DNA from: a virus
Reading direction: 5' to 3' (one strand)
DNA length: 28,372 nucleotides
IMG/VR virus record: IMGVR_UViG_3300048686_000419
Span: 1-28,372 of that record
The position numbers were made by a program, and so were the translations under genes. The notes beneath the pieces are model-generated. The model did not search any database and had not been told where the DNA came from. It saw only the letters and a program-made list of their open reading frames with translations. The number at the start of each line of letters is the position of its first letter. Within the stretch, counting starts at the first letter, position 1. This document shows, piece by piece, positions 22,243 through 28,372 of the stretch.

Positions 22243-22265
22243 CGGGGTGGGATTAACCTGCCCCG
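22243..22265 (+). terminator. Stem-loop terminator at the convergent late/early junction
   Basis: CGGGGTGGG pairs with CCTGCCCCG around an ATTAA loop (9 bp, two G-U pairs), 20 bases after the fibre stop. The G-U pairs exist only in the plus-strand transcript, so it should work mainly for the late genes. It overlaps the stop codon and last codons of the opposing ATPase gene. A short TGCATTTCC follows. It separates the two opposed transcription units. Confidence 0.65.
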
Positions 22266-23443
22266 TGCATTTCCCTAGCCAGCGGAACGTAAGTTTCTGT
22301 CCCCGCTTGACGCTGAATAATCCCCGCCTTTTCCATTAAATTCATAATACGCTCCGCTTTTTCGGCGGGAGTGCGCTGTGATAAAAACCGTAAGATTGTT
22401 GCCGCAGCAATCGGGGCGCGGTGCTTCACATAAATGCTGAATAAATACTGAAATGTTTCTTCGATCACTTGATCGTCGGAGCGCATAATCATGTCGCGGA
22501 AGATTTGCGGCATCAATTCTTCAATCTCAAGCAACCAGCCTCTCGCCCGTTCGACATCTTGCATTCGTATGGCGAGTTCTTCGCCGCGAGCCATGGCGGA
22601 AGTCATCGCGAGTTTGACGGCAAAGATTGTTCCTCGACGTGGAATGTAGTTGGCGAGTTTGGGATGATCGGGAACTGGTCCCCATTTATCTTTGCGCCAG
22701 CGCTCCATGTCCGCGATAGCTTTCGCGTCCCATTTCATTTCGCCGTAATAGTCTGCGCAGGCATCTAACTTTTGAACAAGTTTTTTCTGCTCCGCGTCCA
22801 TGTTTTTGTATTCGCCAAACAGCGGGACATCGGGCATGGACGAGGAATAGACCATTAAAAGGCGAGAGGTCCAGCCCATTGTCCATGCGGCCTCGGGAAG
22901 CAACGTCGCCAAGAAACCGGGCTGTGATCCGACGAGCAGCGTGGTCATGGGATTGTGAATTTCAATCGGGTCTTTCAAACTGTGGCGACGTTCCTCACGG
23001 TATGTTGCTTTGTGGTCGAACAACTCGTTAATGATGGATAGGAAGTTTAGATCGTGAGCGTTAATAAAAACACCTAGCTCTGCTGCGAAGACAAATAGGT
23101 GGTTGTAATCGAGGACTCCAGAGTTGTTGGGTTTCAACACACTCCGTGCCGACCGACCCAGCGCGTCAATGTATGAGGCGGCTGTCACGCTGTTGGGTGC
23201 GATGTGAAATTTCTTCGTGGCCTTCAAAAGCGCTTCGGCAGGATTGATCGCTTGCGATTTGCCGATGCCCGGAGGAGCCACGAGCATTGTGTAGAGGTTC
23301 GCATATTGCGGACCTGCTTTTGTCATGCACCAAACACGTTTTTCTAACGCGCCAGAAAGCGTGGTGATCGCCGCCCATTTACGGAAAATTTCTGGTGACG
23401 GGCGCTCGTCAGTGAACGCCACAAAAGAATCAACAAAGTCCAC
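22253..23443 (-). CDS. P-loop ATPase, probable replicative helicase or primase-helicase (DUF3987-like)
   Basis: The product has 396 residues. The start is GTG 23443, supported by AGGGAG 7 bases before. The N-terminus (SPEIFRKWAAITTLSGALEKRVW) precedes a Walker A, A56-PPGIGK-S63. An FVFAAELGVF stretch with E122 may be Walker B. GWTSRLLMVY later offers an arginine-finger-like Arg. The C-terminus (about 330-390) looks like a winged helix (AAATILRFLSQRT...ERIMNLMEKAGII). This layout resembles phage and prophage DUF3987-type ATPases acting in replication. No primase zinc motif is seen. It follows the polymerase by 35 bases on the same strand. Confidence 0.7.
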   Translation of the reverse strand: MDFVDSFVAFTDERPSPEIFRKWAAITTLSGALEKRVWCMTKAGPQYANLYTMLVAPPGIGKSQAINPAEALLKATKKFHIAPNSVTAASYIDALGRSARSVLKPNNSGVLDYNHLFVFAAELGVFINAHDLNFLSIINELFDHKATYREERRHSLKDPIEIHNPMTTLLVGSQPGFLATLLPEAAWTMGWTSRLLMVYSSSMPDVPLFGEYKNMDAEQKKLVQKLDACADYYGEMKWDAKAIADMERWRKDKWGPVPDHPKLANYIPRRGTIFAVKLAMTSAMARGEELAIRMQDVERARGWLLEIEELMPQIFRDMIMRSDDQVIEETFQYLFSIYVKHRAPIAAATILRFLSQRTPAEKAERIMNLMEKAGIIQRQAGTETYVPLAREMHGAG

Positions 23444-23478: not shown

Positions 23479-24960
23479 TTAAAGTTTTTGTGAGAGCAGA
23501 GGTGTTCTTCTGCGCTCGTCCTTTTTGTTTTTCCACTTAGCCAAACCATCGGGATTGGAGTCTGGGTCGAAGTTGCCCCAGTTCCATCCGACTTTCGCTT
23601 CGCCGGGGACGACTAACTGATGACCGTCTTTTTCAAATGCGAGATCAAAATGGGAAAGAGCCTCGGAGATGATGTCAACTTCGTTAAGGTGTTCGGGGTA
23701 TTGAAAGTAAAGAGCGTCGTGAACTTGGGCGATGAGTTGCACCTGCGGCATGTGTTTCCAAACTCTCCACAAAACCAGGTTCAGCCTCTCCGCCGTCGCG
23801 CTCTGTGGTGAAAACGCAATCGCCTCACGGAGCGTCGAGTCATCGTTCGCTCGTCCGAAGAACGTGCGCTCTCGTCCGAAAGGTGTGATGATGCGGTTTG
23901 AGGTTTGGAGTTGTTGGGCGACCCATCTATGCCATTTTGGTATTCCTGAGAAACGCTCAAAATATCGGGCCTGGAATTGTTCTGCGACGACAACGGGGAG
24001 TTTGGCATGTCGGGCCATGGTCGGAGGTAATCCGCGATAATTGCTTCCGTGCCCGAGTTTCTTCGCCATGTCGCGGTAGGTGAGGTGACGGTAGAAGGGA
24101 GTGTCTGCGATTTTACGATCGGCCTTTGGATCGTCTGTCCATCCCAATTCGGGCCAAGCAGTCCTTGCCACAAGAGTGTGAAGGTCGCCACTATAGCAGG
24201 CGTCCAGATAAGACCAATCACCGCAGATGGTGCCTGAAAGCCATCCCACTTCTCTACTTTCTGCTTGTTCCAAATCAATCCCGCAGAGTTTGTAACCGGG
24301 GTCGGCGACAAACATTTTTCGCAGAGACGAAGTAATGTTCTGTAAATTCGTGCCGGTGCCGAAAGCGTTTGTGCTGGATGAAAAGCGTCCTGTTTCTGTT
24401 CCTGCGACATTGTAAGAAGTCCTCATGCGACCGTCGCTGTCCACTTCCGTGTTGAGCACGGAAAGTTGTTTCACAGCGTCTCGTATAGCCAGTATGGTTG
24501 CCACCATTGGACGGGCGTGAAAGTAGTTGTCGAGTTTTTCAAGAGCCTCTCGGTCCATGGACAATTTGCGCTCCCCCTTCTTCGAAGTCCAGATTTCGGG
24601 GATACGCATGTGTTGAAAGAAAAATTCTTGCAGCATCTTAGGGGAATTGGCTTTGAGGGGCTTGTCCCAGACGGCATAAGCAAAACGATTGAGAAGAGCA
24701 GTAAGGCGCTGGATTTCGACAGTAAGCGTGTCAATGCCTTTTTGCCTTTCGTAGCTGTCAATGCGGAAGCCCCGCTGCATCATGTCCATAACAGGGGCCT
24801 GGAGCGCGCGGGTGAAATTGTAAATTTTAGGGGCGGGGCCGATTGCACGAATAGCGTCGAGCACTTCGTGTGTGATGCAGCAATCCAGACCGTTGTAAAG
24901 CTGTTCGTTTTCTGCGAGCACAATGCCTTCTTGCAGTGTGGAGGTGTCGATGATGGGCAT
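23479..24960 (-). CDS. Family A DNA polymerase (polymerase domain plus tail end of exonuclease domain)
   Basis: The product has 493 residues from ATG 24960, whose first base overlaps the upstream stop (TAATG). It copies phage DNA. Motif A is GIDLEQAESREVGW with catalytic D229. Motif B is R296-x3-K300-x7-Y308, in correct spacing, with His304 where Klenow has F762 and T7 has Y526. Motif C is QVHDA, with D415 but Ala in place of the usual Glu. The N-terminus holds Y22-NGL-D26, the Exo III motif of a 3'-5' exonuclease whose Exo I and Exo II lie in the separate upstream gene at 25733-26788. The protein is therefore the second half of a split exo-polymerase. A start at 24996 lacks a good ribosome site. 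Confidence 0.92.
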   Translation of the reverse strand: MPIIDTSTLQEGIVLAENEQLYNGLDCCITHEVLDAIRAIGPAPKIYNFTRALQAPVMDMMQRGFRIDSYERQKGIDTLTVEIQRLTALLNRFAYAVWDKPLKANSPKMLQEFFFQHMRIPEIWTSKKGERKLSMDREALEKLDNYFHARPMVATILAIRDAVKQLSVLNTEVDSDGRMRTSYNVAGTETGRFSSSTNAFGTGTNLQNITSSLRKMFVADPGYKLCGIDLEQAESREVGWLSGTICGDWSYLDACYSGDLHTLVARTAWPELGWTDDPKADRKIADTPFYRHLTYRDMAKKLGHGSNYRGLPPTMARHAKLPVVVAEQFQARYFERFSGIPKWHRWVAQQLQTSNRIITPFGRERTFFGRANDDSTLREAIAFSPQSATAERLNLVLWRVWKHMPQVQLIAQVHDALYFQYPEHLNEVDIISEALSHFDLAFEKDGHQLVVPGEAKVGWNWGNFDPDSNPDGLAKWKNKKDERRRTPLLSQKL

Positions 24961-25118
24961 TAAAGCACCATTCCGCAAGCAACAAACAGCACCCAAACGG
25001 CTAACGCTTTTTCAGAACCAGTCACGATGTAATATGTGAAAGGCACGAATGAGAGGATGAGCGGTGAAAGCATTAGAGCAAACCTTTCATATGCAGATGG
25101 TTGAATATCCTGCGCCAT
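24960..25118 (-). CDS. 52-residue small membrane protein
   Basis: The ATG at 25118 has AAGGAG six bases upstream. The product starts MAQDIQPSAYERFALM and has two hydrophobic stretches, LSPLILSFVPFTYYIVTG and ALAVWVLFVACGMVL, so it is an inner-membrane protein. The last base of its stop is the first base of the polymerase start, so the polymerase is probably translated by coupling to it. Its first 46 bases overlap the end of the 73-residue gene in another frame. No family is recognised. A longer reading from 25217 would run through the ribosome site and is unlikely. Confidence 0.65.
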   Translation of the reverse strand: MAQDIQPSAYERFALMLSPLILSFVPFTYYIVTGSEKALAVWVLFVACGMVL

Positions 25119-25294
25119 GCGTAGCTCCTTACAATACTTACAATGGTAAAGATCGCGGTGAGGCTGATGTTTTCTTGGAGTGAAGGGTGTAGGTTGAACC
25201 ATGGGAACACCAGCCATTGAGTTAGCAAGGAAATGAGAAAACCAGACGCGGTGTTGAGGGACGCTTCCATAAAGGAATGTTTCCTGCTTTGCAT
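25073..25294 (-). CDS. 73-residue membrane protein, DUF7220-like
   Basis: ATG 25294 is preceded by AGGAG nine bases upstream, located inside the end of the HNH gene. The pattern is that of a common small phage family: a basic QSRKHSFMEA start, a first membrane helix (GFLISLLTQWLVFPWFNL), an amphipathic loop with NISLTAIFTIVSIVRSYAWRRIF as the second helix, and a basic end. These proteins recur in phages of Proteobacteria with no assigned function. It overlaps the HNH gene by 73 bases and the next small membrane gene by 46 bases. The name rests on recalled family resemblance. Confidence 0.7.
   Translation of the reverse strand: MQSRKHSFMEASLNTASGFLISLLTQWLVFPWFNLHPSLQENISLTAIFTIVSIVRSYAWRRIFNHLHMKGLL
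25125..25130 (-). promoter_or_regulatory. Ribosome binding site of the 52-residue membrane gene
   Basis: AAGGAG on the minus strand, six bases before ATG 25118. It decides that start over the longer in-frame reading from 25217. Confidence 0.7.
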
Positions 25295-25740
25295 AAGGAT
25301 TTACTCCTCTCCAACAATTCTATTGCTTCTTCTTTTGTTTTTACGGTGCCGAGGTTAATTCGTTTTTTATCAGGCTGGTCTAAATACACTTTCCATTTGC
25401 TATGAGTTTTGTCGAAACAATATCCGACACGGTTTTCATGTCGAGAAGTATTTCGCATGTTTTCTGTATGCGAGCATTCTCTCAAGTTACAAAATCTGTT
25501 GTCCGCAGGATTACGGTTTACGTGGTCTATAAATTGCGAAGGGAAGGAGCCTGTTTCTGCAAGCCAAACTAAATGGTGCACTAAATGTAATTTGCCGTCA
25601 AGTCTAATTGACGTATAACCGCGTCTATTAACATGACCTGCGAATTTTCCAACAAATCCTCTGCGAACAGTTTGTTTCCATGAAAATGTTCCAGACTCTG
25701 CATGATAAGTCAGTCGTGTGAGTAATTCTTCTTTAGTCAT
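25222..25740 (-). CDS. HNH endonuclease with AP2-type DNA-binding domain (homing endonuclease)
   Basis: This 172-residue mobile endonuclease lies between the two halves of the exonuclease-polymerase. Residues ~1-50 are a typical leader (ESGTFSWKQTVRRGFVGKFAG, then GYTSIRLDGK). The HNH core is H55-H56...D72-H73...N81...N85 (HHLVWL, IDHVNRNPADN). Residues ~102-145 form an AP2-like fold (GYCFDKTHSKWKVYL...INLGTVKTKEEAIELL). The last ~22 residues run into the next gene's start region and look unlike the family. The start overlaps the upstream stop (ATGACTAA), with GGAG 10 bases before. Base composition is about 39% GC by hand count, lower than its neighbours, which points to separate origin. Confidence 0.9.
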   Translation of the reverse strand: MTKEELLTRLTYHAESGTFSWKQTVRRGFVGKFAGHVNRRGYTSIRLDGKLHLVHHLVWLAETGSFPSQFIDHVNRNPADNRFCNLRECSHTENMRNTSRHENRVGYCFDKTHSKWKVYLDQPDKKRINLGTVKTKEEAIELLERSKSLCKAGNIPLWKRPSTPRLVFSFPC

Positions 25741-25980
25741 CTTTCTTCATCTCCGTAATTTTTTTACCGCGCATGGTTTTCCATGCTGGCTCACTTGTGT
25801 ATATTGAGCCAAGAAAGCCTAAACCTTTTTGTAATTCTGGATACAGTGCATGGTGATACAACATTGTATCTTCTAAACATGATCTGGGTCTGTAACCCTC
25901 TTTCATTAAATACTGAATATCATAGCAACCGTTTTGAAATATCTTTATGACGAAAGGATTTTCTAAAATGCTTCGAACCA
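25261..25980. other. Low-GC island covering the HNH gene and the adjacent exonuclease end
   Basis: Hand counting in 60-base lines gives about 36% GC for 25741-25980, about 39% for 25321-25740 and about 42% for 25261-25320. The lines 25201-25260, 25981-26040 and 26041-26100 are near 52%. The shift on the right falls inside the exonuclease coding sequence, about 240 bases beyond the HNH start, so the island is larger than the HNH gene itself. Confidence 0.7.
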
Positions 25981-26788
25981 CATTTCTTGCATCTCGTTCA
26001 AGTGCAGGGCTGTCCCAATAGTTTCCGCCTTTCGAGCGGTCCCAAAATGGAACGACCATTGCGTTTTCAGCGTCGGCGCTAAATCCGATCATCTCGATCA
26101 TGCCGTATTTTGTTTCGATGTCGCAGGCGCTTTCAGCACGAATGTGTTGCGCGATCCATTCATGGCATTCTGCGATTGTCGGGTTGACTAAAATTCTGCG
26201 AGAGGGTCTTTTGATTTCTGGAAAAAGACTTTCGCGTTTGGCCTTCATTAAATCCGCGAGGGTAATCGGCCTATTGGCCCAATTACGCAAGACTGCCGAA
26301 GGGTGATAGGTCGGGAGGACTTTGCCGCCAGCAAGAGTTCCTGTTGCCACTGTCCCGCGTAGGCTTCCAAGGCCATTAGTGCCAAGCAAAGCCCAACAAG
26401 CTGTAGCCCCCAAAGCGACAGTGATATTAGGACGAACTTCTTCCAATTCGACACGGAGACGCTCCAATTCTGACAGGTATTCGGGGCGAAGATACTGCCC
26501 CACCTTACCTAAATGCGGGTGAAGATAATCTTCGCCGCACTCAGCCTTTTTGCAACAAAGCGCGGTGAAGTCGTTGTTCGGGGGACGCAGCGCCAACACA
26601 TTTGTCAAAAAGCAATCTTTTCGAGCAATCCCTGCCTCTTTCAACATGCGGGTCAGTTCTTGACCTGCGTAGCCTTGGAAGGGCTTTCCGACCATTGCCT
26701 CTTGCTCACCCCAGGCTTCACCGACAAACGCAATCTTTGCGTCTTTCGGACCAGAAGAATGAGCGAATGCTGGCGCTGCGTTGTGCAT
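25733..26788 (-). CDS. Uracil-DNA glycosylase fused to the N-terminal part of a 3'-5' exonuclease
   Basis: The product has 351 residues. Residues ~15-195 match a family 4/5-type uracil-DNA glycosylase: G23-EAWGEQE-E30, a TNVLALRPPNN stretch, VALGATACWALLG and the H162-P-S motif (LPTYHPSA). The N-terminal C-x2-C and the Cys of KCRPP that hold the iron-sulphur cluster in family 4 are absent. Residues ~210-351 are a DnaQ/Klenow-type exonuclease with Exo I D223-x-E225 and Exo II N286-x2-Y-D290, ending soon after a SIYTSEPAWKTM stretch, before Exo III. The missing Exo III opens the polymerase at 24960. The start is one base after the upstream stop with a weak ribosome site, so coupling is likely. 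Confidence 0.85.
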   Translation of the reverse strand: MHNAAPAFAHSSGPKDAKIAFVGEAWGEQEAMVGKPFQGYAGQELTRMLKEAGIARKDCFLTNVLALRPPNNDFTALCCKKAECGEDYLHPHLGKVGQYLRPEYLSELERLRVELEEVRPNITVALGATACWALLGTNGLGSLRGTVATGTLAGGKVLPTYHPSAVLRNWANRPITLADLMKAKRESLFPEIKRPSRRILVNPTIAECHEWIAQHIRAESACDIETKYGMIEMIGFSADAENAMVVPFWDRSKGGNYWDSPALERDARNVVRSILENPFVIKIFQNGCYDIQYLMKEGYRPRSCLEDTMLYHHALYPELQKGLGFLGSIYTSEPAWKTMRGKKITEMKKDD

Positions 26789-26789
26789 G

Positions 26790-27032
26790 TTACTGCTGCT
26801 TTGCGGTTAGAGCTTTGACAAGCCACATGGCTCCGGCTTCGAACGAAGTAATTGCTTGGCCGTAAAGCCGCAGTTCTTCGTCTTTAAGTTCGGTGCCAGC
26901 GCCGTCCGGCATCATGTCGTAGCAAAAGTCGATCAACTCTGCCGCAAGACGTTTTGCTTCTTTCACGTCTGCTTGCTCGGAAGGGTTGAAAGACTTTCGA
27001 ACGATCTTCTCGCCGTATGTAAGTTCAGCCAT
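26790..27032 (-). CDS. 80-residue protein resembling the Acb2/Tad1 hairpin family (possible anti-CBASS cyclic-nucleotide sponge)
   Basis: The start ATG overlaps the upstream stop (TAATG). The layout is that of Acb2-type hairpin proteins: a short N-terminal segment with Tyr6, the FNPS turn (KSFNPSEQADV), a first long helix (EAKRLAAELIDFCYDMM), a linker, then a second helix with LYGQAITSFEAGAMWLVKAL. Acb2 oligomers bind cyclic di- and trinucleotides and so blunt CBASS (and, for relatives, Thoeris) immunity. Placement among early, small, overlapping genes next to DNA-modification genes is typical for counter-defence. The family call is from recalled sequence style, and binding residues are not confirmed. 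An alternative is an uncharacterised early phage hairpin protein. Confidence 0.6.
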   Translation of the reverse strand: MAELTYGEKIVRKSFNPSEQADVKEAKRLAAELIDFCYDMMPDGAGTELKDEELRLYGQAITSFEAGAMWLVKALTAKQQ

Positions 27033-27481
27033 TAGCGATTTTCCTCTGCCACAATGGCGAGCAGCAGCAGGCTGTAAACCACCATGTCGTCGATGCGGTC
27101 GCGGATGGGCTCGCTTCGCGCACGATTTTTGTTTTCGCGCACGTCCTTCACATACTGTGTGATCGTGTCGATGTGTTTGCCAGCAAGAAAAAACCACGCG
27201 GTTGACATGGGGACGCCCTGCTGGTCCGCCAGTCTCCGAAAGTTCGCAAGAATGTCAGCCTTGTCACCATATTCCGCGTTCTTCGTGGCGAATAATTTCT
27301 CAGCCCGCTTCATGGCGTCAGCGATAATGGTAAGCTGCGGGTTGCTGCCAGCAATGTTGGTGGGGGCGTTGTTCGGGACTTTGTTCACGGCGGGCTCCTT
27401 GTTGGCTACGGGTTTCACGTCAGCAATGGTTTCATAAAGTTCGTGAATGTTGATGCGTTCAGCTAGATTTTCCTGCGTCAT
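27032..27481 (-). CDS. Nucleotide-modification-associated domain 1 (DUF1599-like) protein
   Basis: The product has 149 residues from ATG 27481, chosen because AAGGAG lies 7 bases upstream; longer readings run back through the methyltransferase gene. Residues ~1-55 are a flexible, charged, Asn/Pro-rich start. Residues ~60-145 carry the domain pattern: KNAEYGDKADILANFRRLADQQGV, then GKHIDTITQYVKDV, and a final RIDDMVVYSLLLLAIVAEE, a helical bundle with conserved Asp/Asn. The family is linked to phage base or nucleotide modification systems, but its exact reaction is not established. It overlaps the methyltransferase end by 23 bases and the Acb2-like start by one. Confidence 0.75.
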   Translation of the reverse strand: MTQENLAERINIHELYETIADVKPVANKEPAVNKVPNNAPTNIAGSNPQLTIIADAMKRAEKLFATKNAEYGDKADILANFRRLADQQGVPMSTAWFFLAGKHIDTITQYVKDVRENKNRARSEPIRDRIDDMVVYSLLLLAIVAEENR

Positions 27482-28372
27482 TGTTTTGCTCCTTTTGTAG
27501 TGATGATGCTTTGCGGAGAACACGCGAATGATTAAGGGCTCGTCTCGCGTTCGCCACGTAGTCATCGTCAATCTCGAGGCCAAGCACATGCTCGGCTCCA
27601 AGGGCTTCGGCGGCGCGGAGAGATGATCCGCCTCCGCATGTCGGGTCCAGCATACGGGTGTTGCTGTCCACGAACATTTGTAGGAAGTGCTTCAGCACTG
27701 GCTCGGGTTTGGTGTGCGGGTGGTGCTCCTTGTTTGTGGGGGATGCAATCGCATTACTGACAGGCTTGACCAACAGCCTATCTTCACGAGAGGCGATCAG
27801 CGCCGTCTCGTAAATTCGTCTGGGTTCACGCTTGGGATCAGGCACGATCCCCACGTTGTCGCTTTTGACCCAGATTAACGGGAAGTTACAGAACGAAAGC
27901 TGTGGCGCAAGCTCTGCAAACATTTCGAGTGTCTTGGCTTGGATTTTGATGTCGCCAGATAGCCAGAACACCAGATGGCCGCTGTGCGCCATGATGCGGT
28001 CGAGGTTGGCGCAAAGCGCGTGGATTAGTTTTTCGTAAACGTCCGCAGCGTCGTCGTAGTTGGACCATGACTTTTTGCCAGACCATGCGCCTCCGAAAAC
28101 ATTCACGCCATAGGGGAAGTCGCAGTGGATGAGATTAAAAGGCTCTCCGCGATAGGCTGGGGCCCATTCGAGGAAGGACTGCTGGAGGATTGAAGCCTCG
28201 GCGGGCGTGATTAGGGGCGCATGTCGGGCACTTTTGGCGGGCGCGTCGGGGGATAGGCCGGAGGATTGATTTTCCGGGGGCGTGGTTGCGTTCATTAGGT
28301 CGTCTAGGGGGTCTATACCCGATTGCCCCGAAAGCCTATCAGCGACCGCCTCTGTGGCTGTTGACAATAGAT
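27459..28372 (-). CDS. DNA adenine/cytosine-N4 methyltransferase (beta-class order), 5' end beyond window
   Basis: The frame is open to the window edge, so the start is not visible; a TTG at 28367 or an ATG at about 28295 would be internal candidates, neither with a good ribosome site. The target-recognition/catalytic motif IV DFPYG (about 28110-28121), a variant of DPPY, comes before the SAM-binding motif I, DPTCGGGSSLRAA (about 27627-27647), which is the beta-class order. VLGLEIDDDYVANA follows motif I. The leading ~50 residues are a low-complexity linker, so another domain may lie upstream. It probably protects phage DNA from host restriction or marks it for another step. Its end carries the ribosome site for the modification-associated gene. 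Confidence 0.85.
   Translation of the reverse strand, partial: LLSTATEAVADRLSGQSGIDPLDDLMNATTPPENQSSGLSPDAPAKSARHAPLITPAEASILQQSFLEWAPAYRGEPFNLIHCDFPYGVNVFGGAWSGKKSWSNYDDAADVYEKLIHALCANLDRIMAHSGHLVFWLSGDIKIQAKTLEMFAELAPQLSFCNFPLIWVKSDNVGIVPDPKREPRRIYETALIASREDRLLVKPVSNAIASPTNKEHHPHTKPEPVLKHFLQMFVDSNTRMLDPTCGGGSSLRAAEALGAEHVLGLEIDDDYVANARRALNHSRVLRKASSLQKEQNNDAGKSS

Follow-up and report, generated by a model that had tools for sequence, protein, structure and literature searches.

An 80-residue protein encoded in a viral replication operon belongs, by its sequence, to the Acb2/Tad1 hairpin family as a distant member, an assignment that we regard as solid, and it probably works as a sponge for cyclic oligonucleotides. 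Acb2 itself is a phage protein that sequesters the alarm signals produced by infected bacteria. It is encoded in the window, by which we mean the whole 28,372-base virus record IMGVR_UViG_3300048686_000419 of IMG/VR. Six protomers, each a short N-terminal helix followed by an antiparallel helix pair, would form a hexamer, which would hold cyclic di- and/or trinucleotides at the contacts between subunits and leave them intact. With the signal nucleotides bound, CBASS-type effectors would not be switched on: stoichiometric sequestration would keep the effectors of CBASS or of a related signal-based defence off during infection. We infer the hexamer, its ligand, its binding and its anti-defence effect from knowledge of the family. 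This type of sponge system is already known; the FNPS branch, to which the window protein belongs, is less so.

The gene and its operon

The original prediction placed an 80-residue open reading frame in this segment. The frame is open over exactly that span, but it lies on the minus strand, and the plus strand of the span carries a stop (Table 1). The protein, MAELTYGEKIVRKSFNPSEQADVKEAKRLAAELIDFCYDMMPDGAGTELKDEELRLYGQAITSFEAGAMWLVKALTAKQQ, contains both of the motifs that had been read from it, FNPS (residues 15–18) and AGAMWLVKAL (residues 66–75). In IMG/VR, the gene is present at the same position in all 16 near relatives (74–99% identity) and its pairwise dN/dS is 0.04–0.22; because of this retention and these ratios, the frame is, by comparative sequence measures, a genuine gene evolving under purifying selection. 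Among the neighbouring operon genes compared with relative L013, it is the most divergent, at 76% identity versus 82–93% for the others.

The gene shares one base with its upstream neighbour (junction TAATG), whereas one base separates it from the downstream uracil-DNA glycosylase (UDG) gene (junction TAACATG). It therefore does not overlap both neighbours, as had been thought, but only the upstream one. For the upstream 149-aa frame, Pfam and NCBIfam gave no match, and the only matches were PHROGs of unknown function. In L001–L004, the upstream neighbour is only 71% identical and lies ~226 bases from the Acb2-like gene.

A position between modification genes and repair/replication genes had also been described. 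The replication operon is there, but the modification genes come down to a single DNA methyltransferase. The order in relative L014 is PD-(D/E)XK nuclease, AAA ATPase, 145-aa protein, ParB_N–methyltransferase fusion, unknown 145-aa protein, Acb2-like gene, UDG–exonuclease, polymerase and primase/helicase-like ATPase; its methyltransferase (L014:4135-5586) is a 483-aa fusion of ParB_N with an N6/N4 DNA methylase. The likely motif IV of the ParB-fused methyltransferase reads DFPY, the usual form being DPPY. Since the operon holds only one ParB-fused DNA methyltransferase, the gene for which is incomplete in the window, the suggestion that this phage also uses DNA camouflage is only a guess. The operon is presumably expressed early.

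Table 1 Features of the Acb2-like gene and its operon in the window
Feature	Position	Strand	Remark
Acb2-like gene, 80 aa	26790..27032	-	ATG at 27032, TAA at 26792-26790
Phe15 of FNPS motif	26988..26990	-	Invariant, 82/82 aligned sequences
Lys27	26952..26954	-	82/82; aligns with invariant Acb2 Lys26 (PaMx33 numbering), 50/50; hhalign and MAFFT
Arg55	26868..26870	-	82/82; aligns with Acb2 Arg67, 45/50 Acb2-type sequences
Thr62	26847..26849	-	79/82; aligns with PaMx33 Thr74 (43/50) and T4 Thr68
Ribosome-binding site AGAGGA	27042..27047	-	Within 3' end of upstream gene (junction sequence)
Upstream neighbour, 149 aa, phrog_6802	27032..27481	-	One-base overlap with Acb2-like gene
DNA methyltransferase (N6_N4_Mtase)	27459..28372	-	Truncated at contig edge
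Downstream neighbour: uracil-DNA glycosylase domain and 3'-5' exonuclease part of family A DNA polymerase	25733..26788	-	
Polymerase part of family A DNA polymerase	23479..24960	-	Same operon as Acb2-like gene
Primase/helicase-like ATPase	22253..23443	-	Same operon as Acb2-like gene

Relationship to proven Acb2 and Tad1 proteins

A profile search for the Acb2/Tad1 hairpin, the check proposed with the original prediction, returned a match of the window protein to Pfam PF24729 above the Pfam cut-off (3.6e-7, 30.7 bits, cut-off 27). The same profile is matched at E ≤ 0.01 by all 82 FNPS-type sequences of a diverse alignment. A second library agrees: phrog_717 is common to PaMx33 Acb2 (9.8e-33), T4 Vs.4 (2.3e-32) and FNPS-type relatives, among them P0002 and P0004 (7e-8 and 5e-15), and the window protein itself gives a weak match to it (8.8e-4).

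The window protein is just ~15% identical to the Acb2 proteins of PaMx33 and T4 (~16% for T4). BLASTP of P0001 against PaMx33 Acb2 found no match, and single-sequence comparison is therefore too weak at this distance; searching the PDB with the single sequence of the Acb2-like protein likewise gave chance matches only. We compared the 82 FNPS-type sequences with an independently built alignment of 50 Acb2-type sequences, made up of PaMx33-type Acb2 and T4 Vs.4, and hhalign joined the two groups at 96.8% (E 2.6e-10). A scripted repeat of this profile comparison scored 54.8; in 100 column shuffles the highest score was 24.8 and the mean 10.5, and a reversed-alignment control scored 9.4. Cyclic-shift controls carried no information, since a local alignment finds the shifted block again. 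As the profile–profile score lies far beyond the shuffled and reversed controls, homology to proven Acb2 proteins can be called firm at the profile level despite ~15% identity. The Acb2-type membership originally proposed is thus supported by PF24729, phrog_717 and the shuffle-controlled comparison. Run against the PDB, the FNPS profile reached T4 Vs.4 directly as the sole Acb2 (E 0.007) and no Tad1 chain at E ≤ 10; chain 9ptq ('Acb2 homolog 43'), which appeared weakly elsewhere, was absent among the matches of this profile.

The two-helix hairpin expected for the protein was also recovered by structure prediction. AlphaFold2, supplied with the 82-sequence alignment, gave a monomer model (pLDDT 92.8, pTM 0.81) with helices at residues 6–10, 21–40 and 48–75, that is, a predicted short N-terminal helix and two long antiparallel helices, without an extra domain and without strands. 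The same helix layout has been published for Acb2 (PMC10419184). When the model was compared with a viral structure library, the two best matches were both named Acb2/Tad1 hairpin proteins; Foldseek found no significant match in the PDB. VIA-align against the PDB ranked T4 Vs.4 with cGAMP (7uq2) first (Z 7.5, rmsd 2.6, 65 residues), with unrelated hairpins reaching up to 7.2. This method does not separate Acb2 from other hairpins, and a control model of PaMx33 Acb2 has the same limit, scoring 12.4 with its own structure, 9.5 with T4 and 8.5 with unrelated folds. The comparison of the predicted fold with the PDB is thus consistent with Acb2, while alone not decisive.

The window protein shares its Pfam domain, its PHROG and the helical hairpin with Acb2 of the Pseudomonas phages PaMx33/PaP2 (PDB 8h2j, 8h2x and 8ixz). 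The PaMx33 protein is 93 residues long rather than 80 and begins with MDNQHKKIKGY; its Tyr11 is not clearly matched in the window protein, which has the FNPS motif instead and a shorter connection between the helices. T4 Acb2 (Vs.4) is the top structural match in the PDB; like the window protein, it carries MW..(R/K)A in its last helix as well as the Thr at T4 position 68, whereas it has no Arg at the position of window Arg55. Tad1 (Thoeris anti-defence 1; PDB 8smd and 8kbb) is a hexameric sponge of the same Pfam hairpin domain family. Unlike Tad1, which has an N-terminal beta domain, the window protein is modelled as all helical. Tad1 binds gcADPR plus CDNs and CTNs (PMC12043709).

Pocket residues and the probable function

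We aligned the FNPS-type and Acb2-type groups jointly with MAFFT and took registers from hhalign as well. In the joint alignment, the window protein demonstrably retains four positions of proven Acb2 proteins (Lys, Arg, Thr and Met): Lys27 and Met69 occur in every sequence of both groups, and Arg55 and Thr62 in at least 90%. PaMx33 Lys26, Arg67, Thr74, Met81 and Arg85 correspond to window Lys27, Arg55, Thr62, Met69 and Lys73, the last pair being Lys in 82/82 FNPS-type versus Arg in 50/50 Acb2-type sequences. The original prediction had named Tyr and Lys as pocket residues. The Lys is in place, Lys27 aligning with Lys26, which we take to be a residue with a role in ligand binding. The Tyr, in contrast, has no certain counterpart in the FNPS-type protein; the position of T4 Tyr8/PaMx33 Tyr11 falls in a gap of the joint MAFFT alignment. 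In T4 Acb2, mutation Y8A yields a binding-deficient protein and T68M lowers binding affinity; sponges already known also set off the toxicity of Panoptes (PMC12657230).

It is possible that Phe15 of the FNPS motif is the counterpart of the Acb2 binding Tyr. The Pfam alignment begins with Phe15 at profile position 2, and the Pfam and MAFFT registers lie about one helix turn apart. The distances to the following helix are alike, with Phe15 six residues and PaMx33 Tyr11 five residues before it; measured from the conserved Lys, the two offsets differ by 3. The N-terminal MDNQHKKIKGY typical of PaMx33-type Acb2 is missing from the window protein in the joint alignment.

Several observations count against a sponge: no Tyr aligns with T4 Tyr8/PaMx33 Tyr11, MDNQHKKIKGY is missing, identity is ~15%, unrelated hairpins (Z 7.2) come close to T4 Vs.4 (Z 7.5), and our searches turned up neither a solved structure nor a published test of an FNPS-type protein. 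The closeness of the Z scores is the one point in favour of a chance helical hairpin unrelated to Acb2, as structure search alone fails to separate the window protein from unrelated hairpins. Two profile libraries and the shuffle-controlled profile comparison nevertheless support homology and make a chance resemblance barely credible. The missing Tyr and N-terminus would suit a hairpin-fold protein that is related to Acb2 but has no affinity for immune nucleotides and serves the replication operon in some other way, for instance by binding DNA, a partner protein or a different nucleotide; the place in that operon is kept in 16/16 close relatives. We nonetheless consider such a protein unlikely: the wider family is not tied to replication genes but also occurs beside terminase, portal and capsid-like genes, and Lys, Arg, Thr and Met are retained where proven sponges have them.

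A further alternative retains the sponge and changes its ligand to a non-CBASS signal such as the Thoeris ADP-ribose product. The hairpins of Acb2 and Tad1 fall into one Pfam family, gcADPR is among the ligands of Tad1 (PMC12043709), and the Acb2 Tyr is not clearly kept in the window protein. The window protein is without the N-terminal beta domain of Tad1, however, and T4 Vs.4 is the solved protein nearest to it by profile, no Tad1 chain having been found at E ≤ 10; we therefore regard this alternative as quite improbable. A cyclic-oligonucleotide sponge acting on CBASS or related signals is the reading that we favour.

The FNPS branch and the split polymerase

The window protein's own subgroup includes the FNPS-type proteins of Pasteurella phage Pmp11, phage DSL-LC05 and Flavobacterium phage FCL-2, which are 37–39% identical to it and differ from it in their genomic neighbourhoods. 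Kept in the subgroup are G7, V11, F15, N16, P17, S18, V23, K27, A31, R55, A60, T62, M69, W70, V72, K73 and A74. One pattern scan of IMG/VR yielded at least 539 confirmed FNPS relatives. A profile scan of genome contigs found 56 loci with the diverse alignment as query and none with close relatives only. The branch reaches genomes of Bacteroidota, Alphaproteobacteria, Burkholderiales, Rickettsiales and Patescibacteria, and it also occurs in phages of Gammaproteobacteria. We found no solved structure of an FNPS-type member in the PDB with the FNPS profile and no published test of one in the literature searched.

Neighbours in the wider family include terminase, portal, capsid-like, SSB-like and polymerase genes (some labels were assigned by eye from sequence), and the 1,049 neighbour genes fall into 715 clusters. 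Because the family adjoins replication, terminase and capsid-like genes alike, with so many neighbour clusters, the varied neighbourhoods point to a mobile accessory function that stands alone, and not to a component of the replication machinery. In contigs L121–L126, the FNPS-type gene comes immediately behind one for a capsid-like protein, in a late-gene context that differs from the replication operon seen in the window.

Only tentatively do we suggest that the FNPS-type proteins form a separate, widespread sponge branch, which might hold its ligand through the FNPS loop and the Lys, Arg and Thr residues, without the Acb2 Tyr, and might accept a different or narrower set of immune nucleotides. 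If FNPS proteins act as sponges, signal-based defence and the means to counter it would extend far beyond the 239 tailed phages of the published Acb2 set (reviewed in PMC12043709), and the unmatched Tyr would predict a different ligand range.

Downstream of the Acb2-like gene, two minus-strand genes (23479-26788) together encode a family A DNA polymerase: the UDG–exonuclease gene (25733-26788) and the polymerase gene (to 24960). They match adjacent stretches of a single PHROG, phrog_17 (475–798 and 808–1235 of 1,445 positions). The split into two genes is kept in relatives. Between the halves lie a DUF7220 small protein of unknown function (1.9e-29; 25073-25294, minus strand) and an HNH endonuclease gene (25222-25740, minus strand). 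A group I intron as the cause of the split was rejected, as there was no Rfam match and the split also occurs in relatives without the HNH gene. A 45% identical HNH gene is found between the two halves in L014/L015, and the gene is absent from the position of the split in relatives such as L001–L005; it looks like a mobile insertion.
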